Source: Prorocentrum cordatum
Taxonomy: Eukaryota > Sar > Dinophyceae > Prorocentrales > Prorocentraceae
Reading direction: 5' to 3'
NCBI GenBank assembly: GCA_963575745.1
Contig: CAUYUJ010012803.1
Coordinates: 62,001 to 126,000, forward strand
DNA length: 64,000 bases
A program made the position numbers and the translations under genes. The notes under the pieces are model-generated. The model was given only the letters and a program-made list of their open reading frames with translations. It made no database searches and was not told where the DNA came from. Positions within the stretch are counted from its first letter, which is position 1; every line of letters starts with the position of its first letter. Of this stretch, positions 4,930 to 63,409 are shown in pieces.

Positions 4930-5190
4930 GCTCGTTCCGAATCGTGCTCCCGCTCCAGCGCTGGCATCATTTTTCCGCCGGCGCCCGGGCTGCACGCCCG
5001 AGCCGGCGCCCAGGCCGGTGCTCGGGCCGGGTCCGGAGCCGGTTCCGGCCGCAGCCTGAAACCGAGGCGGCGCCGAAAAAGGCCATTCTAATACACATTT
5101 TCCTCATGACAATGCTGAGTTTCTGCTTCCGGCGCCCGGGAGGCCTCCCGGGCCGACTCCGACGGCCGGGCCGGCGCCGGAGCCGGCGCC
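4930..5190. repeat. GC-rich flanking repeat, left of the 14 kb unit
   Basis: Contains GGCGCCCGGG-type palindromes, a block TAATACACATTTTCCTC and a block GAATCGTGCTCCCGCT. The same blocks occur just right of the unit (19411-19680) in the same orientation but a different order, so the unit sits between two copies of a related repeat. Confidence 0.6.
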
Positions 5191-5641
5191 CGCTTTGATC
5201 GTCGGGTGGGTGTAAGTGCGGTAAGAGCGTTGTATATCCGATGAAATCGTTTCAACGAAGATGTATGTAGGTTCATGCTAGTTGACCTCACATATTCAAC
5301 ATATATAAAATATCGAACTTCGCATTCATCTACTTAACGTTTTGTTAGATAAGTATATTCAACAACATACCATACATACTACTCACAGAACCATCCATCT
5401 TATCAACTGAGCTATCGGGTACCACTGCCAAGATATATCGATACATACACCTCAACATACCCAACTTAGTAGCTAAGTCAGCTAAGTCGATGTGGGCTGT
5501 CCGATTCGGTTAACCCGAAATTTGCATAACTTTCTATGTTTTGCATGTTTGTTCTTGATATTGCTATGTTTCGGGAAAAAACCACAAAAAACGTTTTAAC
5601 AACTACAACACAACAGTTTTTCAGGACAGGGCGCCGCAGGT
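5191..5641 (+). repeat. left terminal inverted repeat of the 14 kb unit
   Basis: The outer end is CGCTTTGATCGTCGGGTGG followed by TGTAAGTGCGGTAAGAGCG. The inner end is TTCAGGACAGGGCGCCGCAG at 5620-5639. The middle is AT-rich, unlike its surroundings, and only partly matches the right arm. Confidence 0.7.
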
Positions 5642-5843
5642 CGACGCGCCGAGCCGCCCTCAGGACGCCTGCGGGGCGCGGAGGGGAAGGGGGGAGAGGG
5701 AGAGGGGGGGGGATCAACTATTCTTCAAACTGCCTCCCCTCGGCGGCCATCACCGCCTCCCCTCTCCTCTCCTCGTTGTCGGCGGCCAGCCCGCCCCCGC
5801 TCCCTCCTGCCGCCTTCCCTCCCCGAGCCCGCCTTCCTTCTTC

Positions 5844-5915
5844 GGCGGCATATCCGCCCCTCCCTCCTGCACCTCTCTATCGAAGGGCGGCGCATCCGCC
5901 AGCGGCATATCCGCT
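5844..5915. repeat. GGCGG-N5-CCGCC palindromes next to the transposase gene
   Basis: Three 15-bp palindromes: GGCGGCATATCCGCC (5844-5858), GGCGGCGCATCCGCC (5886-5900) and, directly abutting, AGCGGCATATCCGCT (5901-5915). They lie just downstream of the stop codon of the minus-strand gene that ends at 5942. 5642-5843 is CTC-rich and holds nothing else. Confidence 0.85.
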
Positions 5916-5941
5916 CTCGCATGCGCTCGTTTTTTCCTTTT

Positions 5942-8356
5942 TCACGTGATGGCGAGCACATAGCCATCGTCCTGTAGTCGCCGATAAGCCGCCCAGGCTG
6001 GCGGGATCAGCTCGGCGGGCATCACGGCGACGTCGCCGCGCGGCCGCCACAGGGACGCGCCTGGGCATGGCGCGCGCACCCATTCCAGGGTCTCCACCAG
6101 CAGGTAGCTGGCGGCGCCAGCCTGCGCGCAGCAATGCACGATGTACGCCTCGCCGTCGCCCAGGAGAAAATCCTGAGGGCAGCAGCGCCTCGATTTTTGG
6201 GGGGGCACACGCATGTGCACCCCTAAATACCAAGGTTGGTTGCGCCGTCTGTCCTGGCTGCCGTACATCTGGCCGTCGATGGGCGCCTCTCTGCTGGTCC
6301 ACGTTTCAGCCCTGCGGAGGGGTCCTCCTCCTCCTCCTCCTCCTCCTCCTCCTCCTCCTCCTCCTCCTCCTGGCGGCGAGCCGCCTCGGCGGCAAACCGC
6401 CTTCCCCTCTCCCAGCCCATCTTCCTCCACAAAGGGCATGCAAGGTTGCGCCCCGAGTGCCCGAACGTACTGTCCAGCTCTGGCGTGCGCCACGCTTTGG
6501 CGCGGGAGCGCGGCGCCTCCTTCGCTTCCTCCAGGAAGCAGGCGAGCATCGCCGTCAAGGCCGACCGCTCGAAATTCTCAGGGTTGTCGATCTCCTGCGA
6601 CCTGGACCGAAGCAGGTTGTGCTTCCGCTCGAGTACGAAGGCGTCCAACCAGATGCCGTCCTCCGCAGGCTGGTCGGGGACGTGCCACAAATAATGATGC
6701 TTCGGCTTGATCAGGGCTGGCCCGTGCGCGGCTTTGTGCAGCGCCAAGGAAATCGAAACGGCCTTGGTCCAGACAGCTATCAAATTCGGCACGGCGCCGA
6801 TCCTCAGGACGTAGCCGAACCGCCTGCCACCTAAGCGCTCGAGGATGCGCGCGGGCCGACGCGGTGCATCCTCGAACGCGCAGGCCAGCGTTTGCGTTTC
6901 AGCTGCGGCCGCATGTCCTTTTGCCCTGCATGTACAATTCGAGCATCTTCGCCATCGCCTCGAACGACCGCGCCGCAGCGTTCGCCATGCCGCTGGGACG
7001 CAGCTCTGTGTGCACCCAATGACGAATCAAAGGGAACACGGCCAAGCAATCCGACGCCTTGCCCACGAAGTGCGACGCCTTGCAGGTCGCTTTCTTCCGA
7101 GCCACGCTGAACAGAAACGCTGGCGGTTTCCTGCCGCGTCTGCCAGTCCGCCACGCCGAGCAGCGATCCCGCCACGTTCCCCACGCGTCGGGGATGACAT
7201 CCCTCACCGCCTTGAGGAGCGCAAAGATTTCGACCTGCAAGGTCCCGCCGCTGGCCAGCATGGTATGCATGGGGTCCCTCACGTATGTGCTCGGCGGCGC
7301 CACCGTCCGCAACGCCTGGCACGCCACCAGAGAACGGTCATCCAGAGTGATGCCCATTGCCGTCTCCTTCGGGGGCCGGAACATCAGAAGGGAAGGAAGG
7401 GGGGGACATCAGAAGGGGATCGATGGAAATGTTTTCCTCCCTGGCTCCAGTCTCTCGATGTTCGCTCTGGTTGTCGTGTCCCGCAGCGACGCCAAATCAT
7501 CATATTGCTGCAAAAACTCGTCTGACGACAGCGGGTCAAAGCGCGACGAGTCAGCGCACCAGAGAGGCACGAGGTAATCATCGTCGTCGTAGTCTGCAAG
7601 ACATTCCGCCTGATCCAGCACAACGTTCTTGCATTGCAAGCACGGTCTCAGACCTGCAGCGCCCTTGGTGCAGAATGTCTCTTTTCCAGCCGCCTCGTCT
7701 GCAATCAAGCGGTGGAACTTGGCGAAAAAGTGCACGCCGCCGATTGGCGCACCGTGCTCCGACAGACTCTCTGGGCCCAGGAACAGCGCGCGAAGCAATG
7801 CCCGCGCCACGGCCGAGCCGCCGATGCTCTTCTTCACGACGACGCGCAAGGTGCCGATCGGCAGCCACGCAACCTCCTTCTGCAAGAAGGATCCGAACTC
7901 GAGGAAACTCGCATACACCGCGAGCTGATTCCGACGATTATCTATCTTCAAGGCGTTGCCCACGCCAATGTCGTCGTAGTACAGCAAAAGCCTCCACGGC
8001 CGATCGCGCGACACAGGGAAACGGCGCATCGCTTCCCAAAACATTGAACTCCAGAGAGGGCAGTCCGACAGGAGCCTCGGCATCAGCCGATGCGGCAGCG
8101 CCACGCTCCATCGGAAAGGCGTGCCGATCTTGGGCTGCAGCCGCACTGCGCTGATGAGATCGGCCACGGATGCCGTCTGCGATCGCTGCATGGCCCGAGC
8201 GCTCACGTCTATAGCATCGCCCGCGTCGTCGCCATGGCCAAGCGCAGTCACGATTCGCTCGAGCAAAGCCGCGGACACGCCGCGCAGGGCCAGACACTGT
8301 TGCAGTCGAGCCCGCTGCTCCACCTGCTTGTCCACCTGCAGGGCGCGTTTCCCCAT
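5942..8356 (-). CDS. putative KDZ-like transposase (spliced)
   Basis: Start ATG at 8356 (MGKRALQVDK). Exon 1 (8356-7445) encodes 304 residues, with LLYYDDIG at 124-131 and a Cys cluster at C229, C239, C242. Exon 2 (7363-6925) carries VRDPMHTMLASGG. Exon 3 from 6830 carries IKPKHHYLWHVPD and DAFVLERKHNLLRS. A last exon ends VLAIT before the TGA at 5942-5944. Intron 7364-7444 has GAG repeated at both boundaries; intron 6831-6924 fits GC-AG; the third contains the CTC tract at 6326-6372 and two palindromes, and its ends are not fixed. The ordered YYDD, MHT and KPKHH/ERKH signatures recall KDZ-type transposases; this is motif recall, not an alignment. The catalytic set was not proven. It could instead be a domesticated or decaying copy. 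Confidence 0.6.
6326..6401. repeat. intronic CTC microsatellite and two palindromes
   Basis: About 15 CTC units, then GGCGGCGAGCCGCC (6372-6385) and GGCGGCAAACCGCC (6388-6401), inside the probable third intron of the transposase-like gene. Confidence 0.8.
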
Positions 8357-8473
8357 TGCGCCGACGCCCGCGCGCGGGAGGGGCGGGGGCGGGGGGCAGC
8401 GCGAGGCCCAGCGCGGTTGAGAAAAACGAATTGCAGCCAGAGAGACGGAAGTGGAGGCGGGAATGGATCGCGG

Positions 8474-8542
8474 GGCGGAGTAGCCGCCGAAGGGCATGGC
8501 GGTGTAGCCGCCTGAAGGGTCGGGAGGGGCGGCGTAGCCGCC
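8474..8542. repeat. three palindromes upstream of the transposase-like gene
   Basis: GGCGGAGTAGCCGCC (8474-8488), GGCGGTGTAGCCGCC (8498-8512) and GGCGGCGTAGCCGCC (8528-8542). They lie 118-186 bp upstream of the ATG at 8356. The loops differ while the arms are identical. Confidence 0.85.
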
Positions 8543-8903
8543 GAAGAGCGTGGGGGCGAGGGGGCATGGGGGGAGGGGGGAGGGGGGAAGGGGGTGGGTG
8601 GGGGAGATTGCGGAGGCGCGAAGTGAGCGTAGCAACGGAACTTGCAAGGGAGATTTCTTTTTCTCGCACGCAATTTCGAGCTTGAGTTTCAAGCTCGGGT
8701 TCCAAGCCGCCAGCGCTCGGAGACGGGCGCGGCTGGCGGCTCGAGCTCGGGGCGGGCGCAGCGCGGGACGGGCGCGGCGGCGGCTGGCGGCTCTTAGTGC
8801 GGGTGCGCGTGCTGCCTCCAACTCCTCATCCACCTCCTCCTCCTCTCCTCATCCTGCCTCCTCTTCCTCCTTATCCTCCTCTATCGGCCCAGCCGATCGC
8901 CGC

Positions 8904-9200
8904 TCAGCTCTCCTGGTGCGGCTGGCGGCAGAAGAACCGAATGCCGCCTGGGATGTCCTGCACCATCTGCTTCGACATCTGGCACAGCATCTTGCCGCGC
9001 TCCTCGGTGCGGCGCGCCTCCTCCATCATGCGCCGCGCCTTGTCGATGAGCATCTGGCCCTTGATGCCAACGGCGCGTGCATGGCGGCAACGATTGCGCC
9101 ACTCGATGAAGCGCACCACGATGGTCGCCCAGCTCCACGCACTGCCACCCGTGATGAGCTCGAAGTCATCGACGTCGTACTTGTCCGCGATGCTCGCCAT
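8904..9200 (-). CDS. 98-residue protein of unknown function
   Basis: An intact frame from ATG at 9200 (MASIADKYDVDDFEL) to a stop at 8904. The composition is protein-like and unlike the Arg/Pro-rich noise frames around it. Residues 45-80 (GIKGQMLIDKARRMMEEARRTEERGKMLCQMSK) are strongly amphipathic and could be helical or coiled coil. I do not recognise a family. It lies between the GNPIDWRSET-motif locus and the transposase-like gene, on the same strand. It may be the last exon of the locus upstream rather than a gene of its own. Confidence 0.5.
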   Translation of the reverse strand: MASIADKYDVDDFELITGGSAWSWATIVVRFIEWRNRCRHARAVGIKGQMLIDKARRMMEEARRTEERGKMLCQMSKQMVQDIPGGIRFFCRQPHQES

Positions 9201-9319
9201 GGCGGCGCAAGACCGCGAAGGGGCACGACCTCGAGCGGCTCCACTTGAGCCACAAAGACTACGGATGAGGGGTGGGACGGTGGCAGATCATGTCATTGGG
9301 AAACGCGAGAGAACGGTGC

Positions 9320-9550
9320 GAGCGCGGTGGGCAGCAAAGGCGGCATCTCCGCCAAATGAAGGCAAGGCGGCATGTCCGCCAAGGGCTTGCGAGAGTGGAA
9401 AGGCGGCATCCCCGCCAAACGAAGGGCTGCGGTGGTAACGAGTGGGGTGGCGATGGCAACGAAGAAATGTTTTTTTTTTTTTCAACAACAATAACAATTG
9501 TACGAAATCACACACCTCGTCATGAGCGGCCCAACTGCCGCCCCTGCCAA
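9320..9550. repeat. duplicated unit, copy 1 (introner-like)
   Basis: Nearly identical to 9714-9930. Both copies contain GGCGGCATCTCCGCC, GGCGGCATGTCCGCC and GGCGGCATCCCCGCC in that order, then ACAATAACAATTGTACGAAA. On the minus strand both begin GGGCGGCAGTTGGGCCGCTC straight after CAG. The main difference is a T homopolymer near 9469. The two copies bracket the small exon at 9551-9690. Confidence 0.85.
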
Positions 9551-10010
9551 GGAGCTGCTTCGCCTCTGCTTCGTCTCCGACCGCCAATCGATGGGATTCC
9601 CAACGGTGTCGCTGGCCTTCGCGAGCCACAGCTCGCGCGGTAGGGTCTCGGGCAGGACGCGCTCGAGCAGGAGGGAGTTAGGCAAGCGCTTCGCCTCGCC
9701 AAGTGAGGCATCGGAGCGCGATGAGCAGCAAAGGCGGCATCTCCGCCAAATGAAGGCAAGGCGGCATGTCCGCCAAGGGCTTGCGAGAGTGGAAAGGCGG
9801 CATCCCCGCCAAACGAAGGGCTGCGGTGGTAACGAGTGGGGTGGCGGTGGAAATGTTGTTTCACCAACAATAACAATTGTACGAAATCACACACCTCGTC
9901 AGGAGCGGCCCAACTGCCGCCCCTGCTCACGAGCGGCCCAGCGGCCGCGGCTTATTCGGGTCCTTCTCCACCTTTTTCAGGCCGTACTTCATGATGTACT
10001 GGGCCACCAT
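9551..10010 (-). CDS. split GNPIDWRSET-motif protein fragment (two putative exons)
   Basis: A first piece starts at ATG 10010 (MVAQYIMKYGLKKVEKDPNK). A second, about 9690-9551, reads LPNSLLLERVLPETLPREL then ASDTVGNPIDWRSET. The protein encoded at 14322-15366 has DPVGNPIDWRSET followed by EYQMKYDYKKF, so both pieces have counterparts there, but in the opposite order. The two pieces are separated by the repeated unit at 9714-9930, which is probably an intron. The first frame meets a TGA just before that unit, so the donor must be earlier or the locus is broken. Function unknown. Confidence 0.4.
9714..9930. repeat. duplicated unit, copy 2 (introner-like)
   Basis: Second copy of the unit at 9320-9550, with the same three palindromes at about 9733, 9760 and 9796. 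It ends just before the first exon of the split locus. Confidence 0.85.
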
Positions 10011-10017
10011 GGGGCGC

Positions 10018-11956
10018 TCAGGTGCTGTGCTTCTGCGCCTCCTTGAGCATCCCCGCGATGGCCCTCGCCGCCGAGCTCGCATCCTTCTGGATGCTGATGG
10101 CCTCGTCCTGCGTGATCGTCAACGCCACGCCGCTGTGCACGCGCTTCTGCGCCACCGCCTTCATGACTGCCACAGACTTCCTCGCCGCCTTCGCGTTCTT
10201 CACAGCCCATGACGGCACCTTGTCCGCCTTCTCATGCTCGAGGTACCCGTCCAGCTCTGTCTCGAGCCTCGTTGCGGTGCCGATCCACTTCAGCGCCAGG
10301 TTTTTCTCCTGCGTCTCCTTCTTGGCCTGCTCGGCCTTCTCCCTCGCTTCCTGTCGCCTCCGCTCCTTCTCAGCGTCCTTATCCCTGCGGAGCCTTCGGG
10401 GTTGTCCGAAAATGACAACACTTCGAGCCGAGCGAAATCAATAACCCGATCCGAACCTGAAGAGTTGAACGGAAACCGAAAACGAATGCGAAGCCCAGGC
10501 GACACCCCTGCGTTGAACCCCCAAACGGCCTGCTCTTGCTCCTGTCCTTGCTCTTGCCGCGGCTCTTGCTCCTGCCCTTGCGGCGGCTCTTGCTCCTGTC
10601 GCGGTCGCCGCGCGAGCGGCTCCTGCTGCGGTTGGTGTCGCGACGTCTGTCGCGGCGTCTGCTCCTGCTGTCGCGCCTGCCCCTGCTGTCGCGCCTGCTC
10701 ATGCTGCGCCTCCTCCTCCTGCGGCTGTCAGACCTGCGCCTGCGGCGCCGCCTGGATCTGGACATGTCGCTCTCGTCGCTTCTGTCGCCCTTGTCGCCGC
10801 CGTGCTCTGCGACGCCCGTCGAGGCCGCTGCCCGCGGGCCGCTCTGCTTCGCCTGCGTCCTCTTATCGGTGTACAGCTCGTTGCGCACTGCGGCCTCCAC
10901 TGTCTCGCTCCAGGCCGCCTCCAATTGCGGCCTGTACGTCCACTCCCCGAGATCAGGGTTCCACCTCTTATCCTGCACATTATCTTCAATCTTTTTCGCG
11001 TCGAAGCCGTCGTGCGCCCACTTCCTCAGCGGAAGGTACTTGCCACCCTTGCGGACGCGCTCCTCCTCCATCCGTTGGACAGTGATTGAGCTGACCACGA
11101 AGGCTTCAATGCGATCGAGGTTCGACAGCCCAGGATCTTCTGCCAGATCCTTGTAGAACTGCTGCTTGAACTCACTCTTCATTTTGGCGAAACACTTTGG
11201 CGGCCACTGTCCGAACCTCCGAGAAAGGCGCACCCCGTTCGTGTTGCACGCGTCGCACTGGTAAGTCGACTGGCCCTTCGCCCTGATCCTGTAGTTGCAC
11301 TCCTTTGCCGTGCGACAGCAGCGGTTGCAACGCACGATGCTATGCCCGATGCCATGCACATCCACGAACTCCCCTACCTGGGGAGCGCCTGCTGGCGGAT
11401 CGTCCTGAGCTGCCTCCTCCTCCTCCGCCTGCGGCGCTGCCGCCTCGGGCGAGCGCTCCTCATTCTCAACCTTGGCTACCGCGCCCTGCGGTGGAGCCTC
11501 TTCCTCCTCAAGCTCACGCTTGGCACTCTCAAGCTCATCCTGTTTGACGCCGAGCTCGGAACCAATCTCGTCGCCGCGCTCCTCGGAGCCCGATGCCGCC
11601 TCTGACGCTGCGTCGTCCGGCTCTGGTGGCAAAGCCGCTGCGCCCTGAGGAGGCAGTTCTTCGGCGGGAGCTGCGGCTGACGCAGCTTTGCGAGCCGTCC
11701 TCAACGCTGCGGGGTGCTTACCTTTGCCCTTGCCTTTGCTTTTCCCGCGTGCCTTCGGCGGCCCTGCGTCGGTCAATGCGAGCGGCGGCACAAGCTGTCC
11801 AGTCAGTGTCATCTGCGTCCCCGATAGCTTAGCTTTCCCACGGGGCTTCGCTGCGGGCGCCTTGGTCATCACTCCCTTGTTTTTCGGCCTGGCTGCTCCG
11901 AACATCACTGCCAGAGAATGCTGCTGGTGATCTTCAGCGGGCGGCGTCCCCGCCAT
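10018..11956 (-). CDS. Cys-cluster and SR-rich protein, 597 residues in two exons
   Basis: Start ATG at 11956 (MAGTPPAEDHQQHS). Exon 1 is 11956-10530 and exon 2 is 10384-10018. The 145-bp intron begins GC and ends AG, and joining restores the frame exactly (KSR then DKDAEKE). Residues 100-195 are acidic. A Cys cluster (C210, C213, C214, C220, C234, C237) may bind metal. It is followed by a conserved-looking block ending RKWAHDGFDAKKIEDN. Residues 399-476 are an Arg/Ser-rich stretch like SR splicing proteins. Exon 2 is charged and helix-forming (EKERRRQEAREKAEQAKK). This suggests nucleic-acid binding in the nucleus, but the family is not recognised. A longer upstream open frame is low-complexity and was not used. 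Confidence 0.6.
10385..10529 (-). other. GC-AG intron
   Basis: On the minus strand the exon ends AAGAGCAG, the intron starts GCCGTTTGGG and ends GGCTCCGCAG before GGATAAGG. Phase is preserved. It holds a small hairpin, GTTGTC and GACAAC. Confidence 0.65.
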
Positions 11957-12062
11957 GGCGGCGTGACCGCCTTGGCACGCGAGAAGCCGCGCGTCGCGCG
12001 CGGCCCTGATGCCAAGATGAGCTGGACGCGAAGCGATGACGAAGAAAACGCGCGGTAAGTGA

Positions 12063-12218
12063 GGCGGGATAGCCGCCAGCGGAATAGCCGCTTCAAAGGT
12101 GGAGGGAGGGGTGGAGTGAGGTATGAAGGGGGCGGCATATCCGCCAGCGGACTCGCCGCTTGAGAGGGCGCAGGGGCGCGGCGAGGGAGGCGGATTGGCC
12201 GCCAGCGGACTAGCCGCT
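12063..12218. repeat. three tandem palindrome doublets
   Basis: Each doublet is GGCGG-N5-CCGCC directly followed by AGCGG-N5-CCGCT: 12063-12092, 12131-12160 and 12189-12218. The doublet also occurs at 5886-5915. They lie upstream of the 597-residue gene. Confidence 0.9.
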
Positions 12219-12300
12219 CGAAGCGTGGCGGACGCACGAGGTGATACGGATACTGAAATGAATTGCGCGCAACATGACAACCACACAAAATTGACATCAT

Positions 12301-12443
12301 GTTATCATATGTTATCATATGTTATCAGGCGTGTGATAACACCATGCTAACACATGATAACACCTGATAACATGTTATCAGGTGTTATCAGGTGTTATCA
12401 GGTGTTATCAGGCGCGTGATAACATATGCTAACATATGATAAC
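12301..12443. repeat. inverted array of GTTATCA / TGATAAC heptamers
   Basis: Seven GTTATCA sites (12301, 12311, 12321, 12374, 12384, 12394, 12404) and five TGATAAC sites (12334, 12355, 12365, 12417, 12437) in 143 bp, plus two GCTAACA variants. Strikingly AT-rich in a GC-rich neighbourhood. It can fold into a large stem or act as clustered binding sites. Confidence 0.9.
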
Positions 12444-12572
12444 AGCCAACGTTTTTTTGCCAGTGCATGGCGGCGGCGTAGCGGCACGTCCGCCGAGTTA
12501 GTTAAGCGGAGCAGCAGGGGCGGAGCGGCGCCCTGCGCTACCGACCGCGGACGGCGCCGCGTGCTTCAAACC

Positions 12573-12690
12573 GCTGCCTGAGCGGCAGCGAAAAGACGGG
12601 CGAGCGCGGAAGCGAGGCGCGCTGCCTGAGCGGCAGCGAAGAGACGGGCGAGCGCGCGCAATCGGGGCGCGCTGCCTGAGCGTCATCATA
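12573..12690. repeat. 48-50-bp tandem repeat, about 2.3 copies
   Basis: Units start with GCTGCCTGAGCGGCAGCGAA at 12573 and 12621, and a truncated one at 12671. No coding sequence is supported in 12444-13129. Confidence 0.8.
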
Positions 12691-13129
12691 TGCAAGGCGA
12701 TGGGGGGGTGGGCGGACATGGCGATGCAGCACATCCAGAAAATAGCCGCACTCATTCTTATGCGGATGCAGTTTTCTCCACCCAGCCCTTTTGCCAAATC
12801 CCATCCAACCGCCCACCTGTCTTATCCGCCGAAGTTCCCTCACCTTCCTCCCGCTCCGCTCGTCCACTCGCCCCCATATCGCCTTGCATTGGGGGACGGC
12901 TACTCGGCCGCCTGCGTGGCCAAAATTCACCTCGGCGTGGCGGCCTTCACGAATTGAGTGCGGATGGAGTGTGTGGGGGTGTCCTAATTTGTTCTGACAC
13001 AGGGGTGTGGATTGAAATTGCGTTGGAGGAGTGGGAGGGGGGCGTGTAGGGCCGACGCGTCGCGCCGCCTGCGCGAATGAGGCTACTGATGCTGAGGCGA
13101 CATCAGTGCTGCCAGCCGTGCACCTGCAC

Positions 13130-13768
13130 CTACGAGGTCGCGTTGCGCACCAGCCAGCTCGCGAGCACGTCCTCGCACTCGGCGATGCATTGCTCCTCTT
13201 GGCGGAAAGCGTTCACCGCGCGCTCCGCTATCTGGGCGCACATCTGCGTCGCAGTACGCGCGCGGCGCAACGAGTCGAGCACAGCCTGGCACTGGGTGCC
13301 GTTGAGCACCACGATGCTATCGGGCGACATCTGGCTGGCCAACGCCGTGGACATCCTCATGCCCGCCGTGGCTGACGAAGCTGCGCCTGACGATCCGCTG
13401 CCCTCCGAGAACGCGTCCTTCAGCTGGTGCGAGCGCTCCACGCGGGATTGTGGAGGGATTGGCGCCAGCTCGACCTTCGGCGCCCCCTTGCGCCTTTTGG
13501 CGGAGCCCCAGTTGGCCTTCTCCTCCTCCCATTGGCGCCACTCCGCGAGGTCGACTTCCCACGAGTCGGCCTCGAGTGCGATAGCAGCTACCTCCGCTTC
13601 GTCCTCGCTCAAGCTGTGGTACGGCGACACGTGAAGGTGGTTCACCAGCTTGTTCCTGGCCTCCTCCACTGTCTCTCCCTGGAACCACTTGCCGCCCCTT
13701 TTGCAGCTGCTGCTCTGTGGGCACTTGAAGCCGAACATGACTGTCTTCTCGCCCTGCTGGCCTGCCAT
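13130..13768 (-). CDS. 212-residue protein with C2H2-like motif
   Basis: An uninterrupted frame from ATG at 13768 (MAGQQGEKTVMFGFKC) to the stop at 13130. The N-terminal part has C15 and C21 (FKCPQSSSCKRGGKW), then NHLHVSPYH at about 43-51, a Cys/His spacing that could bind zinc, followed by acidic SEDEAEVAAIALEAD. Residues 140-212 look helical (RTATQMCAQIAERAVNAFRQ). The frame is free of repeat sequence, so it is likely a real gene. The family is not securely recognised; the zinc role is inferred from spacing only. Confidence 0.6.
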   Translation of the reverse strand: MAGQQGEKTVMFGFKCPQSSSCKRGGKWFQGETVEEARNKLVNHLHVSPYHSLSEDEAEVAAIALEADSWEVDLAEWRQWEEEKANWGSAKRRKGAPKVELAPIPPQSRVERSHQLKDAFSEGSGSSGAASSATAGMRMSTALASQMSPDSIVVLNGTQCQAVLDSLRRARTATQMCAQIAERAVNAFRQEEQCIAECEDVLASWLVRNATS

Positions 13769-13927
13769 GGCGGCAAGGCGAGAAGTGCACGGCTAGCGCA
13801 GGGGCGGCGTGGGGCGCGAGCCTGTGCGCGCCTAGATTCGAGCCGATACAGCGTCCCAACAACAAAAACATACATGCGTAAGAGGCGCGGTGGCATCGCA
13901 CATTTCGGGATGCCAGCAGGCGGCGGC

Positions 13928-14161
13928 GGCGGTTTAGCCGCCAATGGAGGGCTCAGGGCGGCGTGGCCGCCAATGGGCGGTTTAGCCGCCAATGGGCGGC
14001 GTGGCCGCCAATGGAGGCTTCAGGGCGGTTTAGCCGCCAATGGGTGGCTCAGGGAAGGACTGGTGTTTTTTTTCCAACCGCATAGAACAAACCCGATGCG
14101 CCGATGCTCGTATCTGAACGGCGGTTGTCCGCCAGGCGGGGGGAGGCGGCGCGTCCGCCAA
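13928..14161. repeat. palindrome cluster between two genes
   Basis: GGCGGTTTAGCCGCC at 13928, 13976 and 14024; GGCGGCGTGGCCGCC at 13957 and 13995; then GGCGGTTGTCCGCC and GGCGGCGCGTCCGCC near 14120-14160. They are separated by AATGG- and CAGG-type spacers. Confidence 0.9.
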
Positions 14162-14321
14162 TGAGATAGATCGGCAACGAAGAGAGGGGAGGAGAGATGA
14201 GATGAGACGAGGCGGGGAGAGGCGGCGCGTCATGACGCGTCAGCGCGGATAGCTGCAACTATCCGCGCTCGAATTACGGAAGCTATGCACCCCAGCCCGC
14301 TTGCAGGTCCACGCGATCACC

Positions 14322-15366
14322 CTACAAGAAGACATCTCCGCGGGCGGGCGGGCGCGGCTTCGCTGGCGGTGGTGCCATCTTGCTTGTCGGCTGCAGCCGA
14401 CGCCCTGCCCTCGGCTGCACCATGCTGGGCTTCCCTGCTGGCGGCTGCCTGGTCTTCGGCGGCGGCGGCCCCATGGTCTTCGGCGGCGGAGGCGGAGCTG
14501 GAGGGTTCATATTGCCAGTCCTCCACGGCGCCTGCTGAGGCATCGTCTTGGGCAAGTTCGGCGCCATGGGCTCCCGATGCATCAGCTGAGGCTTGGGGAC
14601 GTGCGCCTCGCGCACCCGCGGCGCTGCCTTGTTGCCGTGCAGCTTCGCGTACATCTCGCGCTTTGCGCCACCTCGGTTCCCCCAGCGCTTCGCATTGGCG
14701 CGCCACGCCTGGCCCTGCCACGTCTGCGGCCCGCCCATGGCGGGGCCAGGCGGGCCGCGGTCGCGGAACTTCTTGTAGTCGTACTTCATCTGGTACTCCT
14801 TGAGCACGGCGAGCACGGTCTCCGACCGCCAGTCGATGGGATTCCCAACGGGGTCGCTCAGCCAGGCTCGCAGCTGCGCCCTGAACGCCTCCACCGCGCT
14901 GGGATGCGCCTCCACCGCCTCGGGGGGCTCTTCCACCACAGGCGTCGCGCCCCGCATGTGCGACGCGAGCTCCTTCACGAGAGCCGAGGGCGGGAAAGGC
15001 CGCTGCCGCGGGTCCCGCGGCGGTGACGTCGGCCCCCGCCTGCGCGGCGGCGTCGACGGTGCCCGCGGGTGGCGCGGGCTGCGCGATCGCGCTGGCTGCG
15101 CCGCCAACGTGGGCGCGCTGGCTGGCCGACTGCCGCTGGCGGAGGAAGACCGATCCCCTGCGTTGTTGTCCACGCCCGCAAGGTCGGAGAGCAACTGCAT
15201 CGCTGGCCCGAACATCTCCTGCGCCGAATCGCCAAAACAGTTCGACCGAGAGCGGCCAGCCAGTTTCGCGCGCGATGCGCGCGTCCCTGGCTACCGCACG
15301 CGGGGCCACTTGTTTTGGCGATGCAGCTGCCTCCAACGCGTCGAACGCGCTGCCGCTGTCTGCCAT
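14322..15366 (-). CDS. 317-residue proline-rich protein with GNPIDWRSET motif
   Basis: Exon 1 (15366-15310) encodes MADSGSAFDALEAAASPKQ. Exon 2 (15218-14322) continues EMFGPAMQLLSDLAGVDNN. The 91-bp intron has GT-AG ends and keeps frame. The N-terminal half has an RS/P-rich stretch (RSRSPRHPRAPSTPPRRR). The middle has LSDPVGNPIDWRSETVLAVL then EYQMKYDYKKFRD, shared in part with the split locus at 9551-10010. The C-terminal third is proline-rich, ending PPARGDVFL. Function unknown; basic and disordered segments suggest a nuclear or nucleic-acid-binding role, which is inference. The start at 15366 was chosen for its ATGGC context; the open frame extends further upstream through low-complexity sequence. 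Confidence 0.55.
15219..15309 (-). other. GT-AG intron bracketed by an inverted repeat
   Basis: The last 12 bases of exon 1 but one (ATCGCCAAAACA, minus strand, 15322-15311) are perfectly inverted inside the intron near its 3' end (15239-15228). Pairing would bring donor and acceptor close together. Confidence 0.6.
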
Positions 15367-15936
15367 GGCCGCGGCCGCAGTGCGAGGCGCCGAGCGCGAC
15401 GCGGTGGCTGCGGCGCAGCCTCGGCGCGCGGGCCCCAGCCCACGCGTCGGCGCGAAAGGGGGGGGCCGACCCCGCGCGGGCTCGCGGGCACCCGCGGGCC
15501 GCGGGCTTGAACCGAAATGGAATCGGACGCGGAAGCGAGACTTCGGGAGGAGGGGGAGGGGGTTGCCCATGGACCCATTGAAGTCTTGGAGCTCCTCGAG
15601 CCCTCGGGGGCCTCTCAGAAGGGCCCCGCTGGTTCTTGCGACGGGGTCTCGGGGGAGGGGGCAGAGTGAGGGTGGCATTGGGAACCAGAAATATAAGTGA
15701 ACTGGTGTCCCTTTGAATGTGCAGGTCTTGGTTCACTTGTTTTCGTCGTTGAACGGGCGGTGGCAACGTCGGTGCCTTCGCGCGCGCCCATGCCATTCTG
15801 GGTGAACGCCTTCGCCGTTCGAGCAGTGGGCGTCTCCCCGACGTTAGTTGGCGTGGGATCCAGTGCCTGACAGCGGAGAGGGGGGCGCAGGGACGTGGCG
15901 CGGGGGCGCGGAGTGGGCCGAGTAGGGGAGGGGGGC

Positions 15937-16066
15937 GGCGGCATGTCCGCCTGAAGGGCGGAGGAGCGCAAAGGGGTGGGGCGGGGGCGGCATGTCCGCC
16001 ACGAGTTGGAAGGCGAGAAGGCTGCGCTACAAGGCGGCATATCCGCCACGAGGCGGCATATCCGCC
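15937..16066. repeat. four palindromes downstream of a gene
   Basis: GGCGGCATGTCCGCC at 15937 and 15986; GGCGGCATATCCGCC at 16033 and 16052. They follow the stop codon of the gene ending at 16131. Confidence 0.9.
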
Positions 16067-16130
16067 ACGACCTTTTTGTTATCCCGAGGCCGCCCCGTTG
16101 GCCTGGAGAGTTGAAGAGTCGTAGCGCGAA

Positions 16131-17083
16131 TTACTCGCCGCGCGCCCTGGCGGCGAGCTCCTTCTTGACCAGCTCCTCCGCCTCCGCGATGGCCCTGGCC
16201 TCGGAGCGATCGGGCGCAACGAGGCAGCAGGGGGCGGAGGGGGCGTCGAGGCAGGGGCGAAAATGAAGAGAGCGCGGAGGAGGGCGTCGAGAAGGGCGTC
16301 GGTGAGAATCTGGCCTTGTCGGCCTCATCGCCCGCGATGTACTTCAGGCTGACGTTGCTGCCAGGGACGCCGACCCTGCCGCTGCGGAACTGCACCTGGG
16401 GGGCGGAGCAACGATGAACAGTCGCCTGAAAGGCGGCGGGCGCGCAAACTGCGACCCCAGCGGGGCTGCTGGGAATCGCCGCGCGCGCCCGACGCCTCAT
16501 CGGTGGGAGGTTCAACCCCGCTCGCCAAGTTGCGTGTGGTCTGCATCTCCCACCTCGGCTTCGCCCACTTGCGCTGCTTGTCCTTCCCAGCCGCGCCGTC
16601 CGTCTTCTTGCCCGTGGGGGGCGGCGTCTTCTTAGCCACGTTGCCCGTGGCAGGCGGCGTCGTCTTCTTTGCCGCGTTGTCATTGCCAGGCGGCGTCGTC
16701 TTCTTAGCAGCATTGCCCGTGGCAAGCGTGGGGGCCTTCACCGCCTCGGCGTTCTTTTTCGTCTTGACCGCCTTCGTCCTCTTATCCATGGCCGCGACCA
16801 TGGCCAGAGCCGCCTCCGTCGGGGTCTTCTTCAGAGAGCCTGCGGCGATGCCGACCTTCTCAGCCTTGGGCGGCGGCGTCACGGCGACGATGCCGAAGTC
16901 GGAGTCGGAGTCGAGCTCGATCGGCAGCTCATGCTTCTTCTGCTTCTTCGCCGCGCGGCTCTTGCTGATCGAGGCCGTTTGGGCGGCGGCGGTGCTCGAT
17001 AACGGCTGACAGTCGGCGGGTTTGCCGCCATCGTGTGCCGCCAGTTGCTGCGTCGACGGCGCATCCGAACTCCCCGCCGCCAT
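16131..17083 (-). CDS. Lys/Ala/Pro-rich protein with three putative exons
   Basis: Start taken at ATG 17083 (MAAGSSDAPSTQQL); a longer open frame starts at 17206. Exon 1 has KSRAAKKQKKHELPIELD, a possible nuclear signal, and repeated AAKKTTPP segments, ending near KWAKPRWEMQTTR. Exon 2 (16395-16315) encodes 27 residues, VQFRSGRVGVPGSNVSLKYI then AGDEADK. Exon 3 (16199-16131) encodes ARAIAEAEELVKKELAARAR and GE. Intron 16200-16314 fits GC-AG, and GCCAG follows both boundaries. The first intron has a clear acceptor (CCCCAG before GTGCAG) but an ambiguous donor. The family is unknown. Confidence 0.5.
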
Positions 17084-17233
17084 CGAAAGCTGGTGGTTCG
17101 AACCTGCTCGTTCTTGCAACGGCTCCTGCGGCTGCTGCGTCTGCGAGCGGTCGATCAGCTGGATGGCTGGGTTGGGCCAGCGGCCGCCGCTGCGCGAAAG
17201 CCCCACCTGAAATCAGGCGGATCACCGCCGAAC

Positions 17234-17289
17234 GAAAATATCCCCCCCCCCCCCCATCCCCCTAGGGGGATGGGGGGGGGGAATATTTC
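17234..17289. terminator. large perfect hairpin just after a stop codon
   Basis: The arms pair from the centre CCTAGG (17261-17266): CCCCCTAGGGGG, then AT, then long C and G runs, then ATAT/AATATT ends. It abuts the TGA of the 313-residue gene and lies before the next gene. A role in 3'-end formation or RNA stability is inference. Confidence 0.6.
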
Positions 17290-18229
17290 ACAACACGCCC
17301 TCCATCCAGGCATCCAGAAACGTACCCCGCGCCGATCCAGGAACCCACCCCTCGACCCAATACCAGGTGTCCCGCGGGGGAATGCGTTCTGTTATTCCCC
17401 GTGGAGCCGTCGGCCAGCGCCCAGAGAACGAATCGGCCGCCGCGATGGGGAGGTGCTGCTGAGGAGAGCCGCCGCCTGGGCCGTGGGATGGCTGCAGCCC
17501 GCCGCGGGCGGGCGCAGGCGCGGGCAGCGCGAGGTGGCCGCTCTTCTTCCCTGCACGGAGATTAATCAGCTTCGCAATCGTCACCATCTCGACGGGATTT
17601 ATCTGCGGCGCCGTCGCTCCAACACCTGGCGGGAAGGCGTCGACGTACGTGATGGGGTACTGAGACTGGAGCCTCCCAGGCGTGATGGGGAGAGCCTGGA
17701 TGCCATCCCTGGGCGGCGGCATCGTCGCCACGAGATTCTTGAACGAGGATTTCACTGTGGCCAGATATGACTGCAACAGCTCCCTCGTGATCTCGCCCGT
17801 CTCCACGCCTGTCTGCTTGCACACCAGCAACAAGAATGCTGCCATATTGGCGGCCGTCGGGCAGCTCGGATGCCTCAGGCCAAGCGCCCCGAGGTGCTCT
17901 GAGAACGCCGCCATCTTGGCAGTGAAGCCCGAATGCGGCGAGAGCACGAACTCCCACAACTGAGGCGTCAGAAATTCAATGAACCCCTCGTAGTTCTGGA
18001 GCTTCCTCCCCTGCAGGCTGCCCGACGACAGAGCCTGCAAGAAGTCTCCCAGCTCGGACTGCGCCCACCCCACGCCGCCGCCCAAAGCAGCAAACTGCGC
18101 ACTCTGGAGCTGCGACCAGCGCTGGGACGTCGCCGCCTGGATGCAGGCAGGAAGGTGCTCCGTCGCACTGCCGCGCGCTACGAACGCCGCCCGCGCCTCC
18201 TCCAGGCGGCCTCGAAGGATGCCCTCCAT
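17288..18229 (-). CDS. 313-residue protein of unknown function
   Basis: A single open frame from ATG at 18229 (MEGILRGRLEEARAAF) to TGA at 17288. It is protein-like throughout: YEGFIEFLTPQLWEFVLSPH and ATVKSSFKNLVATMPPP suggest folded helical segments, while 230-290 is Pro/Gly-rich. No known domain recognised. It is the first gene of the minus-strand series inside the 14 kb unit, with a hairpin immediately after its stop. Confidence 0.6.
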   Translation of the reverse strand: MEGILRGRLEEARAAFVARGSATEHLPACIQAATSQRWSQLQSAQFAALGGGVGWAQSELGDFLQALSSGSLQGRKLQNYEGFIEFLTPQLWEFVLSPHSGFTAKMAAFSEHLGALGLRHPSCPTAANMAAFLLLVCKQTGVETGEITRELLQSYLATVKSSFKNLVATMPPPRDGIQALPITPGRLQSQYPITYVDAFPPGVGATAPQINPVEMVTIAKLINLRAGKKSGHLALPAPAPARGGLQPSHGPGGGSPQQHLPIAAADSFSGRWPTAPRGITERIPPRDTWYWVEGWVPGSARGTFLDAWMEGVL

Positions 18230-18360
18230 GGCAGCGATGCGGCGCGACCGCGCGCCGAGCGGAGTGCGCGACTCCCCGCGCGCGCACGCCGCCCGAAGCC
18301 CTCGGAGGAGGGCTCGCCAAAAACGGATCGAGCCAACGCGCGTGCGACGGACATATCCTA

Positions 18361-18500
18361 CTCCTGCTCTTCCTGCTCCTCCTCCTCCTCCCCCTCCTCC
18401 TCCTCCTCCTCCTCCTCCCCCTCCTCCCCCTCCTCCCCCTCCTCCTCCTCCTCCTTCTCCTCTTCCTCCTCTCCCTCCTCCTCCTCCTCCTCCTGGGTGA
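18361..18500. repeat. CTC tract
   Basis: A polypyrimidine run of CTC units with CCC and TTC interruptions, upstream of the 313-residue gene. Confidence 0.9.
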
Positions 18501-18636
18501 GGGGGGGCGCAGGGGGGAGAGGGTGTCGAAGGGGGGGCGGGGGAGGGGGTGCCGAAGGGTGCGCGGGGGGGAAGAAGAGAGCTATGGGGGAGGGTGGGTC
18601 AAGGAGAGGCCAGGGAGGGGAGGGGGGAAAGGGGTG

Positions 18637-18990
18637 GGCGGCTTGCCGCCGAGGGGGTGGAAGGAGGCGGCAAAGCAAGCCGCCGATAGGGCGGTTGGGA
18701 AGAAGCGGTTTCCCGCCACGAGGAGGAGAAGGCGGTTTGCCGCCAGAGGAGGAGTAGGCGGTTTGCCCCCAGAAGGGGTAGGCGGTTTGCCGCCAGAGGA
18801 GGAGAAGGCGGTTTGCCGCCAGAAGGGGTAGGCGGTTTGCCGCCAAAGGAGGAGAAAGCGGTTTGCCGCCAGAAGGGCGGTTTGCCGCCACGGAGGGGGA
18901 GAAGGCGGATTGCCGCCATGGGGGGGGGAGAAGGCGGATTACCGCCGACGGAGGACGAGGCGACGGAGGAGAAGGCGGTGCGCCGCCTAA
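18637..18990. repeat. dense array of GGCGGTTTGCCGCC palindromes
   Basis: About twelve copies at roughly 25-35-bp intervals, mostly GGCGGTTTGCCGCC with spacers like AGGAGGAGAA. Variants include GGCGGATTGCCGCC and GGCGGATTACCGCC. One has a decayed arm (GGCGGTTTGCCCCC). Confidence 0.9.
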
Positions 18991-19108
18991 GGAAAGGGGG
19001 GATAAGGGAGGGCCGAAGACACATGGATAAACATTTTCCTCCTTCCCTCCCCCCTCCCCGCGGGCATGCGCGCAGCCCGCAGCGCCGCGGCCGCGAGGTA
19101 CAGCAAGT

Positions 19109-19410
19109 ACCTGCGGCGCCTCGGTCCTGAACAACTGAACAACAACAACAACGGAAATTCAATGGATTTCAAAAAAGTTAAGAATAAAAAATACGCAAAT
19201 GATTAGCAAAAACACGAATATGTTCAGCCCCATCGACTTAGCAGAGATATCTAACTTAGTATATTACTTACATCTACACTTACAAACACCATAAGTATTG
19301 CATATGCACACATGAGATGCGCGATCAACAAGTGTACGTTCTATGGCTTAACTAAGAGTATGTAAGATGAACGCTCTTACCGCACTTACAGCCACCCGAC
19401 GATCAAAGCG
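19109..19410 (-). repeat. right terminal inverted repeat of the 14 kb unit
   Basis: The outer end is the complement of CGCTTTGATCGTCGGGTGG (19392-19410). The inner end, read on the minus strand, is TTCAGGACCGAGGCGCCGCA. About 150 bp shorter than the left arm. Confidence 0.7.
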
Positions 19411-19680
19411 GGCCGGACGCTCGAGCCGGCGCCCGGGCCGGCGCCCGGGCCGGGTCCGGAGCCGGTTCGGCGCCGGAAAATCAAGGCTATTCCAATACAC
19501 ATTTTTCTTTTTAAAAATGCTCAATTTCTGCTTCTGGCGCCCGGGAAGCCTCCCGGGCCGATTCCGGCGTGCTTCCGCTCGTTCCGAATCGTGCTCCCGC
19601 TGCAGCGCTGGCCTCATTTCCTCGCTTCTGCTCGTTTCGACTCGTGCTCCCGCTGCAGCGCTGGCGTCATTGCCCGTGCC
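19411..19680. repeat. GC-rich flanking repeat, right of the 14 kb unit
   Basis: Contains GGGTCCGGAGCCGGTTC, CCAATACACATTTTTC, GGCGCCCGGGAAGCCTCCC and GAATCGTGCTCCCGCTGCAG blocks, matching 4930-5190 in the same orientation but in shuffled order. Confidence 0.6.
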
Positions 19681-22560: not shown

Positions 22561-22884
22561 TCAAGCCTCGCGGATAAATTCGGTGAAGCTCAGCTCCCTG
22601 GCAAGGGCCGCCGCCTCCCTCCTGCGCCGCGTCGCGCGCGTGGCAAACTGCTCCAGCTGCTTCCGCAAACCCTCCGGCGGCGCTGCCAGGAAAAACTCGA
22701 TGCGCGGCGCCCGCATGAGCAGGAGGTCCTCGTGGCGCGTGGCGCGCGAGAGCAGCGCGCAGAGCTCCAGCCACCAGCCGTCGTCCTCCTTCTTGCTGTT
22801 CCCCACCTCGTGGCGGCCGCAGTCCAGGATCACGCCTGGGCAATGTCGGCCGAGGGAGTAGCGCGAGTGGAGCTCCCTCTGGGG
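22561..22884 (-). pseudogene. isolated coding exon, 3' end of an unknown gene
   Basis: Reads RYSLGRHCPGVILDCGRHEV then DDGWWLELCALLSRATRHED then PPEGLRKQLEQFATRATRRR and ends LSFTEFIREA at the stop near 22561. The composition is clearly protein-like, unlike the satellite frames around it. A possible acceptor is the AG before CTCCACTCGCGC near 22884, which lies inside a satellite unit, so satellite may fill the upstream intron. No other exon was found in the window. It may be a real terminal exon or a stranded fragment. Family unknown. Confidence 0.45.
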
Positions 22885-22889
22885 CCGCG

Positions 22890-24640
22890 AAGAGTTTGAG
22901 GGGTGTGCCAAAATGAAGCGACGGCGCCATGCGAACTGCGCCACTGGGACCTTAGGTGGAGTTCCCTGTGGGGCCACGAAAGGTGTGAGGGGTGTGCCAA
23001 AAGGGGCGGCGGCGCCATGCGAACTGCGCCACTGGGACCTTAGGTGGAGCTCCCTCTGGGGTCACGAAACGTGCAAACTGGGGCGACGGCGCCATGCGAA
23101 CTGCGCCACTGGTATCTGAAGTGGAATCCCTATGGGGCCACGAAACGTGTGAGGGGTGTGCCAAAATGGGGCGGCGCCATGCGAACCGCGCCACTGGGAT
23201 CGTAGGTGGAGCTCCCATATGGGGCCGCGCAGCGTGTGAGCGGTGTGCCAAGATGGGGCGGCGGCGCCATGCGAACTGCGCCACTGGGACCTGAGGTGGG
23301 GCCCTCTATGGGGCCACGAGACGTGCGAGGGGTGTGCCAAAATGGGGCGGCGCCATGCGAACTGCGCCAGTTCGACCTTAGGTGGGGCTCCCTATGGGGC
23401 CACGAAGCGTTGGAGGGGTGTGCCAAAATGGGGCGGCGGCGCCATGCAAAATGCGGCACTGGGACCTGTGGCGGAGCTTTCTATGGGGCGGTATGCCAAA
23501 ATGAAGCGACGGCGCCATGCGAACTGCGCCACTGGGACCTGAGGTGGAGCTCCCTATGGGGCCACGAGACGTGTGAGGGGTGTGCCAAAAGGGGCGGCGG
23601 CGCCATGCGAACTGCGCCACTGGGACCTTAGGTGGAGCCCCCTGTGGGGCGGCCACGAAGCGTTTGAGGGGTGTGCCAAAATGGGGCGGCGGCGCCATGC
23701 GAACTGCGCCACTGGGACCTGAGGTGGAGCCCTCTATGGGGCCACGAGACGTGTGAGGGGTGTGCCAAAATGGGGCGGCGCCGTGCGAACTGCGCCAGTT
23801 CGACCTTAGGTGGAGCTCCCTATGGGGCCGCGAAGCGTGTGAGCGGTGTGCCAAAATGGGGCGGCGGCGCCATGCGAACTGCGCCACTGGGACCTTAGGT
23901 GGAGCTCCCTGTGGGGCCACGAGACGTGTGAGGGGTGTGCCAAAATGGGGCGGCGGCGCCATGCGAACTGCGCCACTGGGACCTTAGGCGGAGCTCCATG
24001 TGGGGCCGCGAAGCGTGTGGGGCGGCGGCGCCATGTGAACTGCGCCACTGGGACCTTAGGTGGAGCCCCCTGTGGGGCGGCCAAGAAGCGTTTGAGGGGT
24101 GTGCCAAAATGGGGCAGCGGCGCCATGCGAACTGCGCCACTGGGACCTTAGGTGGAGCTCCCTATGGGGCCACGAAGCGTGAGAGGGATGTCTCAAAATG
24201 GGGCGGCGGCGCCATGCAAACTGCGGCGCTGGGACCTGTGGTGGAGCTCCCTATGGGGCCACGGAACGTTTGAGCGGTGTGCCAAAATGAGGCGACGGCG
24301 CCATGCGAACTGCGCAACTGGGACCTGAGGTGGAGCTCCTTATGGGGCCACGAGACGTGTGAGGGGTGTGCCAAGATGGGGCGGCGGCGCCATGTGAACT
24401 GCGCCACTGGGACCTTAGGTGGAGCCCCCTGTGGGGCGGCCACGAAGCGTTTGAGGGGTGTGCCAAAATGGGGCGGCGGCGCCATGCGAACTGCGCCACT
24501 GGGATCTTAGGTGGAGCTCCCTATGGGGCCACGAAGCGTGTGAGGGGTGTGCCAAAATGAAACGGCGGGCCATGCGAACTGCGCCGCTGCGACCTTTGGA
24601 GGGACTCCCTTATGGGGCCGCGAAGCGTGTGAGGGGTGTA
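22890..24640 (+). repeat. ~89-bp satellite array 1, about 20 units
   Basis: Units carry GCGCCATGCGAACTGCGCCA, GGTGGAGCTCCCTATGGGGC and ACGTGTGAGGGGTGTGCC in order. Lengths vary from about 75 to 92 bp. The repeating protein frames are artefacts. Confidence 0.95.
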
Positions 24641-63174: not shown

Positions 63175-63409
63175 ACTTCAGATCGAGCTTCTCGTCGAAC
63201 CTCCTGCTCCTCAGGATGTCTGCCTTGTTCGACCTTGAGCCTCGTTTCGTCTTCTTCTTCTTCGGCGGCGTGCTGGGCTGAGAAGGGCCGGCTGGCGCGG
63301 CCCCCGCCGCTGCCAGCCGCCAGGGCGCGGCCCTCGCCGCTGCCCTATTGCTGGCGCGCGCGCGCGCCGCGGGTGGCTGGAAGGGAAGCGGCGGCGGGAA
63401 CGAACCCAC
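63175..63409 (-). other. copia leader region
   Basis: About 235 bp between the primer site and the polyprotein ATG. A different frame is open through it and encodes a Lys-rich stretch (PPKKKKTKRGSRSNKADI) then RSRRFDEKLDLKYGRDR, but it lacks an ATG at its start. It is either untranslated leader or a shifted N-terminal Gag extension. Confidence 0.4.

Follow-up and report, generated by a model that had tools for sequence, protein, structure and literature searches.

The window, i.e., the whole 64,000-nucleotide stretch of DNA analysed from the bloom-forming alga Prorocentrum cordatum, contains an element of 14,216 bp (positions 5193–19408), the boundaries of which are common to copies at different sites. 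It is bordered by terminal inverted repeats (TIRs) of 39 bp. The left TIR (5193–5231, plus strand) begins CTTTGATCG and the right TIR (19370–19408, minus strand) ends CGATCAAAG; both start inwards with CTTTG, and the termini of the element are CT..AG. The original prediction described two inverted segments located 14 kb apart, nearly identical over their outer 40 bp or so, and this description is borne out: the inverted arms (5188–5231 and 19370–19413) are 44 nt long, 98% complementary and separated by 14,138 nt, comparison across copies reducing the TIR proper to 39 nt. The bases previously taken as outermost (5191–5192 and 19409–19410) are a CG target-site duplication lying outside the TIR, and its 2-bp length is derived from related empty sites of other copies. 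The subterminal stretches are AT-rich (5232–5620, 36% GC; 19140–19369, 34% GC measured over 19140–19370), while the element has 64% GC.

About seven genes are predicted in the element, the transposase gene and six others, all of them on the minus strand. The earlier statement that everything recognisable lies on one strand is borne out by the strong codon-usage windows, which are on this strand; a few weaker windows occur on the plus strand (8190, 13230, 14970–15000, 16260 and 16860). The accessory genes are predicted from codon usage, and one of them also from public gene models. This gene (10021–11956, with an intron at about 10387–10528) could encode a protein that carries a Cys-rich motif and has an SR-rich tail, and seven NCBI P. 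cordatum gene models match both of its exons. The other predicted products are a small protein of about 98 aa (8906–9199, recognised by translation as well), a 212-aa protein (13133–13768), a protein of about 297 aa (14325–15215), a Lys-rich protein of about 252 aa (16328–17083) and a protein of about 313 aa (17291–18229) with one variable site among nine copies. The 212-aa protein has no match in Pfam; its start, as read from the sequence, is zinc-finger-like (C-x5-C ... H-x4-H). No recognisable host-gene domain was detected in the element ORFs scanned against Pfam. Of the proposed large cargo-carrying transposon, the large multigene character is supported, and the cargo is putative. Seven public P. 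cordatum gene models (P0012–P0018), one of them with a host-gene label, match parts of the transposon, which means that some predicted host genes are transposon pieces.

Palindromes of the GGCGG-N4-7-CCGCC type occur 42 times in the element versus twice in the other 49.8 kb of the window, and in 200 dinucleotide shuffles of the element they averaged 0.72 and never exceeded 3. The suggestion of a private palindrome class thus holds within the window. The looser form, GCGG-N4-7-CCGC, is found 57 times in the element versus 27 times elsewhere in the window. Each of the seven predicted genes has GGCGG-N4-7-CCGCC palindromes upstream: 35 of the 42 are located no more than 900 bp upstream of one of the seven predicted starts, and two lie mostly within coding sequence. 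Nine palindromes cluster at 18637–18987, close to the right end and upstream of where the first gene starts; seven cluster upstream of the 212-aa gene (13928–14159) and four near the left end (5742–5900). An array of 12 TGTTATCA/TGATAACA motifs (12300–12444) is located upstream of the 10–12 kb gene. The palindromes could serve as sites for an element-encoded regulator.

The transposase gene (6440–8356, minus strand) is supported by homologues (P0001–P0010 and P0019–P0024). Its main exons extend over approximately 8356–7427, 7321–6920 and 6804–6440, and a further 3' exon is possible. The family carries a D-D-CxxC-HxxxH-E signature with RAG1/CACTA ("CMCT") spacing, the residues of which are encoded here at 7975–7973 (D), 7699–7697 (D), 7642–7640 (C), 7633–7631 (C), 6696–6694 (H), 6684–6682 (H) and 6630–6628 (E), all on the minus strand. 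CMCT (CACTA-Mirage-Chapaev-Transib/RAG1) transposases carry, by definition, C(2)C and H(3-4)H in the interval from the second D to the last E. In the family, C-x2-C together with D-D-E is present in 17 of 17 alignment rows, as is the second H, and the first H, and with it the complete H-x3-H, in 16 of 17. The distances from D to C (19 residues) and from C to C (3) are the same in all 17 rows and coincide with those of RAG1 (D711/C730/C733).

Searches of Pfam with the window exons and 16 homologues gave no convincing match (best E 0.024, unrelated families), including none to the KDZ transposase domain, to Transposase_21, the name of an EnSpm-type domain family, or to any other EnSpm-type family. 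Sequence comparison of the family with PDB returned chance-level matches only (best E 0.47). Scanning with the family alignment yielded 19 pattern matches in viral contigs and 24 in genome contigs searched for prokaryotic relatives, with no relative in either set. The most fitting reading of the family is a divergent lineage of the CMCT type.

Other copies with the same termini, a search for which the prediction proposed as a check, were found in the host genome (Prorocentrum cordatum, 4.13 Gb). The left 251 bp used as a query gave 414 first-look candidates, and all 40 that were scored (the window itself included) match at 93–100%; hence the inverted arms are not a chance occurrence. Within this query the TIR begins at position 44; of the 40 scored matches, 36 do not start before position 9, and 14 of these start at 34–41. 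Eight of the ten copies fetched whole are full length. Of the variants in the predicted exons taken together, 27 change an amino acid and 5 are silent, against an expectation of 7.8 silent ones; overall, therefore, purifying selection leaves no signal. The transposase exons contain a single variable site, a silent one, across nine copies (9.6 expected). Hypermutation of the 212-aa gene was considered and rejected, as its clustered changes represent haplotypes common to several copies. The similarity of the copies may be exaggerated by the assembly.

Both ends were read in 25 insertions, and 23 of these have the same dinucleotide on the two flanks (CG in 10, TG in 9, CA in 4); in the other two, the flanking dinucleotides are unlike. 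The 13 pairs other than CG are direct in every case and never inverted, which identifies them as a duplication and not as the tips of the TIRs. The empty-site test consisted of removing 0–4 bp and aligning the result to related empty sites, which belong to repeat families and are not single-copy loci. At all four sites the highest score and the fewest gaps were obtained with 2 bp removed, and two of the sites aligned without gaps (457 columns at 99.8% and 437 at 97.7%). Both target duplications and empty sites thus support insertion, and the target duplication is confirmed as a 2-bp YR within CC-YR-GG. A link to introners was also considered; those were sought through direct repeats of 3–5 nt (PMC10666404), in comparison with the 2 bp found here. 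The element is a genuine DNA transposon and apparently a recently mobile one.

The proposed KDZ (Kyakuja-Dileera-Zisupton) identity is now very improbable. KDZ elements, too, are DNA transposons of eukaryotes and large, and additional genes occur in some of them, which fits a large multigene element; some fungal ones carry a TET/JBP partner gene. However, no KDZ profile was matched in the Pfam searches, the element ORFs scanned gave no TET/JBP domain, and the CxxC/HxxxH spacing is that of the CACTA-Transib-RAG1 group. Polintons/Mavericks and Starships are large and multigene as well, but Pfam domains for a polymerase, capsid, integrase or tyrosine recombinase are absent from the ORFs scanned, and the duplication here is 2 bp. 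KDZ elements make 7–8 bp duplications (PMC12730594), versus the 2 bp seen in 23 of the 25 insertions and in every empty-site test; duplication length and absent profile matches are the grounds for rejecting KDZ. The broader interpretation, a large multigene DNA transposon, stands on the full-length copies at different sites, the duplications and the related empty sites. Segmental duplication or an assembly artefact could be suspected, since some loci have a common left flank (C4302/C10646, C14322/C5446 and the C2592 pair) and the assembler used copes poorly with repeats; nevertheless, the other flanks differ and end at the TIR, and both duplications and related empty sites are present, which leaves this explanation scarcely credible.

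A conventional CACTA/EnSpm element, belonging to the known superfamily and having drifted ends, is a rather unlikely reading, although the signature residues, the short duplication and the extra genes fit it. CACTA/EnSpm and the wider CMCT group (Mirage, Chapaev, Transib, Plavaka, ESTA, Lanisha, RAG1) resemble the element in the D-D-C(2)C-H(3)H-E signature, in duplications of 2–5 bp, a range that includes the 2 bp found here, and possibly in TIRs with repeat-rich subterminal regions and in extra ORFs. CACTA elements are described as having direct and inverted subterminal repeats together with a second ORF (PMC8978399), and the palindrome clusters near both ends and the extra predicted genes may be counterparts of these. 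On the other hand, Transposase_21 and other EnSpm-type matches are lacking in the Pfam searches described above, and plant CACTA elements have CACTA/TAGTG ends and a 3-bp duplication (PMC4158355), not CT..AG and 2 bp. The element also differs from CMCT elements, most of which end in 5'-CA..TG-3', in its CT..AG ends, the absence of a convincing Pfam match, the YR duplication in CC-YR-GG, the seven predicted genes and the palindromes before each of them. Movement by the transposase of another family, with the encoded DDE protein and other genes as passengers, is improbable. The encoded enzyme is a putative one for these ends, and variants in some accessory genes are mostly amino-acid-changing; against this, the transposase exons align in all ten fetched copies, contain no indel and are near-invariant in nine.

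The element is, with good probability, an autonomous cut-and-paste dinoflagellate transposon of 14.2 kb with a CMCT-type DDE transposase, CTTTG 39-bp TIRs and a 2-bp stagger at CC-YR-GG. An enzyme with the putative fold and activity of the CACTA/Transib/RAG1 (CMCT) type would act at the TIRs and join them to the target with this stagger, producing the YR duplication; movement would be cut-and-paste rather than replicative. The palindromes before the genes and near both ends could be operator and subterminal sites for an element-encoded protein, by analogy with the subterminal repeats used by CACTA elements, the zinc-finger-like 212-aa protein being the candidate for binding them. The remaining genes would encode accessory transposition or regulation proteins and not host cargo. 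The element could also, at slightly less than even chances, be the first to be described from a distinct superfamily of RAG1/CACTA-like DDE transposons of dinoflagellate type. It would then be multigene, leave YR duplications at CC-YR-GG and carry a self-encoded regulon, one private palindrome controlling all its genes and serving as the subterminal recognition repeat as well.

Little literature on individual DNA transposons in dinoflagellate genomes was found, and the element bears on the question of what builds these huge genomes. It is concrete and apparently recently mobile, with exact ends, a target duplication and a candidate enzyme, which opens its activity to assay. The group of enzymes that gave rise to RAG1 would gain a divergent branch with it.

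The two inverted segments 14 kb apart, claimed in the original prediction, are real: positions 5188-5231 and 19370-19413 of the window are complementary over 44 nt at 98%. The window (G000:C12797:62001-126000) belongs to a searched assembly of 4,128,499,153 bases in 21,875 contigs; the published Prorocentrum cordatum assembly is described as haploid, with 4.15 Gb, 22,724 scaffolds and 59.7% GC (PMC10666404). Further copies with the same termini were recovered. The 251 bp of the left end gave 414 first-look candidates, a lower bound in which a candidate is not equivalent to a proven copy. All 40 candidates scored, the window among them, match at 93-100% identity. Ten were fetched with about 18 kb inward from the left end, and the entire element (5193-19408) is present in eight of these at 98.9-99.7% identity (the lower values include flanks). 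The copy on contig C16315 stops after position 8588, and that on C5446 is rearranged beyond position 14613. Intact copies are over-represented among the ten, because these belong to the best-scoring matches. On contig C2592, two left ends of the same orientation (216097 and 236696; loci L063 and L065) lie 20.6 kb apart, share an identical 14-nt left flank and are perhaps a tandem duplication containing the element.

Assemblers of the MaSuRCA-CABOG type may homogenise repeats. Since the published assembly was produced by MaSuRCA-CABOG (PMC10666404), the 12-42 pairwise substitutions found over about 14.2 kb among nine full copies (window counted) are possibly too few, and the true divergence may be higher. 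These nine copies (L009-L028 and window 5193-19408) have 130 minority base calls; A>G or T>C accounts for 68 of them and CpG transitions for just 3, the direction being set by the majority and not polarised. Dinoflagellate DNA contains 5-hydroxymethyluracil, to which this pattern is possibly linked, unless it is an assembly artefact.

Left flanks were read in 31 copies including the window, and the right end fell within the fetched stretch in 25 (all except C5446, C16315, C1869, C21843, C14621 and C2592a). A target duplication was found as well: the same dinucleotide stands beside both terminal inverted repeats (TIRs) in 23 of the 25 copies (CG in 10, TG in 9, CA in 4). Unlike dinucleotides (CG/CA) occur in C14344 and C10646; the left flank of C10646 is common to C4302, and recombination or a false join in the assembly may have produced this copy. 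The dinucleotide could alternatively be the tip of the TIR; as the non-CG pairs are direct in 13/13 cases and inverted in 0/13, it represents a duplication. The target context across the 23 copies is C-C-Y-R-G-G (C before in 15 and 19, G after in 16 and 16).

Empty sites are in agreement with a 2-bp duplication. Seventeen joined flanks were compared against the window and 48 fetched loci, and ten gave cross-junction matches, within satellite-like or simple repeats; the sites found are related, not allelic. Four were re-compared after deletion of 0-4 bp, and removal of 2 bp gave the top score and the fewest gaps at all four. At two (C14322 and C13278), the comparison repeat unit has a one-base mismatch within the dinucleotide itself. 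The matches of C19977 (457 columns, 99.8%) and C13278 (437 columns, 97.7%) are gapless. The flanks of the copy in the window are likewise a repeat of this kind, hence the similarity of its two outsides.

A search with the draft transposase protein, built from minus-strand exons (gene at 6440-8356), yielded ten relatives of 463-665 aa at 30-49% identity, and six more came from a profile search; both scored only the 8000 candidates with most words in common. With a cutoff of E up to 10, the Pfam matches of the 16 relatives were all weak and unrelated (best E 0.024), and a PDB sequence search with the family gave only chance-level ones (best E 0.47). D132, D226, C245, C248, H500 and E518 are kept in 17/17 alignment rows (draft protein counted), and H496 in 16/17, with N in the homologue P0019. 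The spacings from D132 through E518 are 92-100, 19, 3, 239-256, 4 and 15-18 residues. Pig RAG1 has D711, C730, C733, H940, H945 and E965 (PMC13056857), the four zinc ligands being also given in PMC10579426; its spacings (D-C 19, C-C 3, H-H 5, H-E 20) are exactly equal for 19 and 3 and close for the others. Kyakuja-Dileera-Zisupton elements make 7-8 bp target duplications, according to Kojima's account (PMC12730594), in contrast to the 2 bp found here. Because of both the RAG1-like spacings and this difference, the transposase would appear to work like an enzyme of the CACTA-Mirage-Chapaev-Transib/RAG1 group, while its membership is not proven, the CT..AG ends of the element counting against it.

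A codon-usage scan, trained on a copia-like ORF within the window, placed strong coding signal in about seven minus-strand blocks (17291-18229, 16328-17083, 14325-15215, 13133-13768, 10021-11956, 8906-9199 and the transposase), while the plus-strand windows are weaker. Both exons of the 10021-11956 gene are matched by seven public P. cordatum gene models (P0012-P0018), and its intron lies near 10387-10528 (from alignment ends, varying among the models). The single frame of the ENA protein P0011 runs through this intron, and P0012 matches two additional parts of the element. Of the 32 variable sites in the predicted exons of the nine copies, 27 change an amino acid and 5 are silent (7.8 silent expected), hence no purifying signal overall. 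The three transposase segments have one variable site (silent) versus 9.6 expected (P about 7e-4, uncorrected for several genes; one segment counted ran past its exon into a stop), and the exons are free of indels. On sequence grounds, this pattern supports recent function of the predicted transposase. The 313-aa gene (17291-18229) likewise has only one variable site. The 212-aa gene (13133-13768) has 8 amino-acid-changing sites versus 1 silent; partly linked, mostly amino-acid-changing haplotypes at 13570-13632 suggest subfamilies or recombination.

The element has 42 copies of the palindrome GGCGG-N4-7-CCGCC, versus 2 in the remaining 49.8 kb of the window and an average of 0.72 in dinucleotide shuffles of the element; for a looser form the counts are 57 versus 27. 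Only 2/42 lie mostly within predicted coding sequence, which makes up 49% of the element. No more than 900 bp separate 35/42 from a predicted start downstream of them, and at least one precedes each of the seven predicted starts (just one for the 252-aa gene, 16328-17083); because the genes follow one another in the same orientation, a site that precedes one gene also lies behind the gene before it. The palindrome clusters towards the two ends (5742-5900 and 18637-18987) recall CACTA subterminal repeats as described in PMC8978399, and we infer that an element-encoded protein may bind the palindromes. Positions 9320-9558 and 9714-9937 are two copies of one block of about 230 bp (89.5% identity), each with three palindromes. 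Just upstream of the 10021-11956 gene, at 12300-12444, long inverted repeats are formed by alternating blocks of TGTTATCA/TGATAACA motifs, twelve in all.

Elsewhere in the window, one 1900-aa open frame (57475-63177, minus strand) encodes a polyprotein of the Ty1/copia type (RVT_2, E 1.9e-16); its C-terminus carries a SAP domain (E 4.1e-7), an arrangement that seemed unusual to us. At 22867-24639 and 29814-31906, units of about 89-90 bp are repeated in tandem, and the two arrays are related to each other in inverted orientation at about 72% identity.

No account of such an element was found in the open-access literature, a scope outside which most subscription journals and Repbase fall. The available part of a dinoflagellate genomics review treats transposons in general and introners, and the word 'transposase' is absent from it (PMC11453091). 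The element possibly represents a new superfamily-level lineage.
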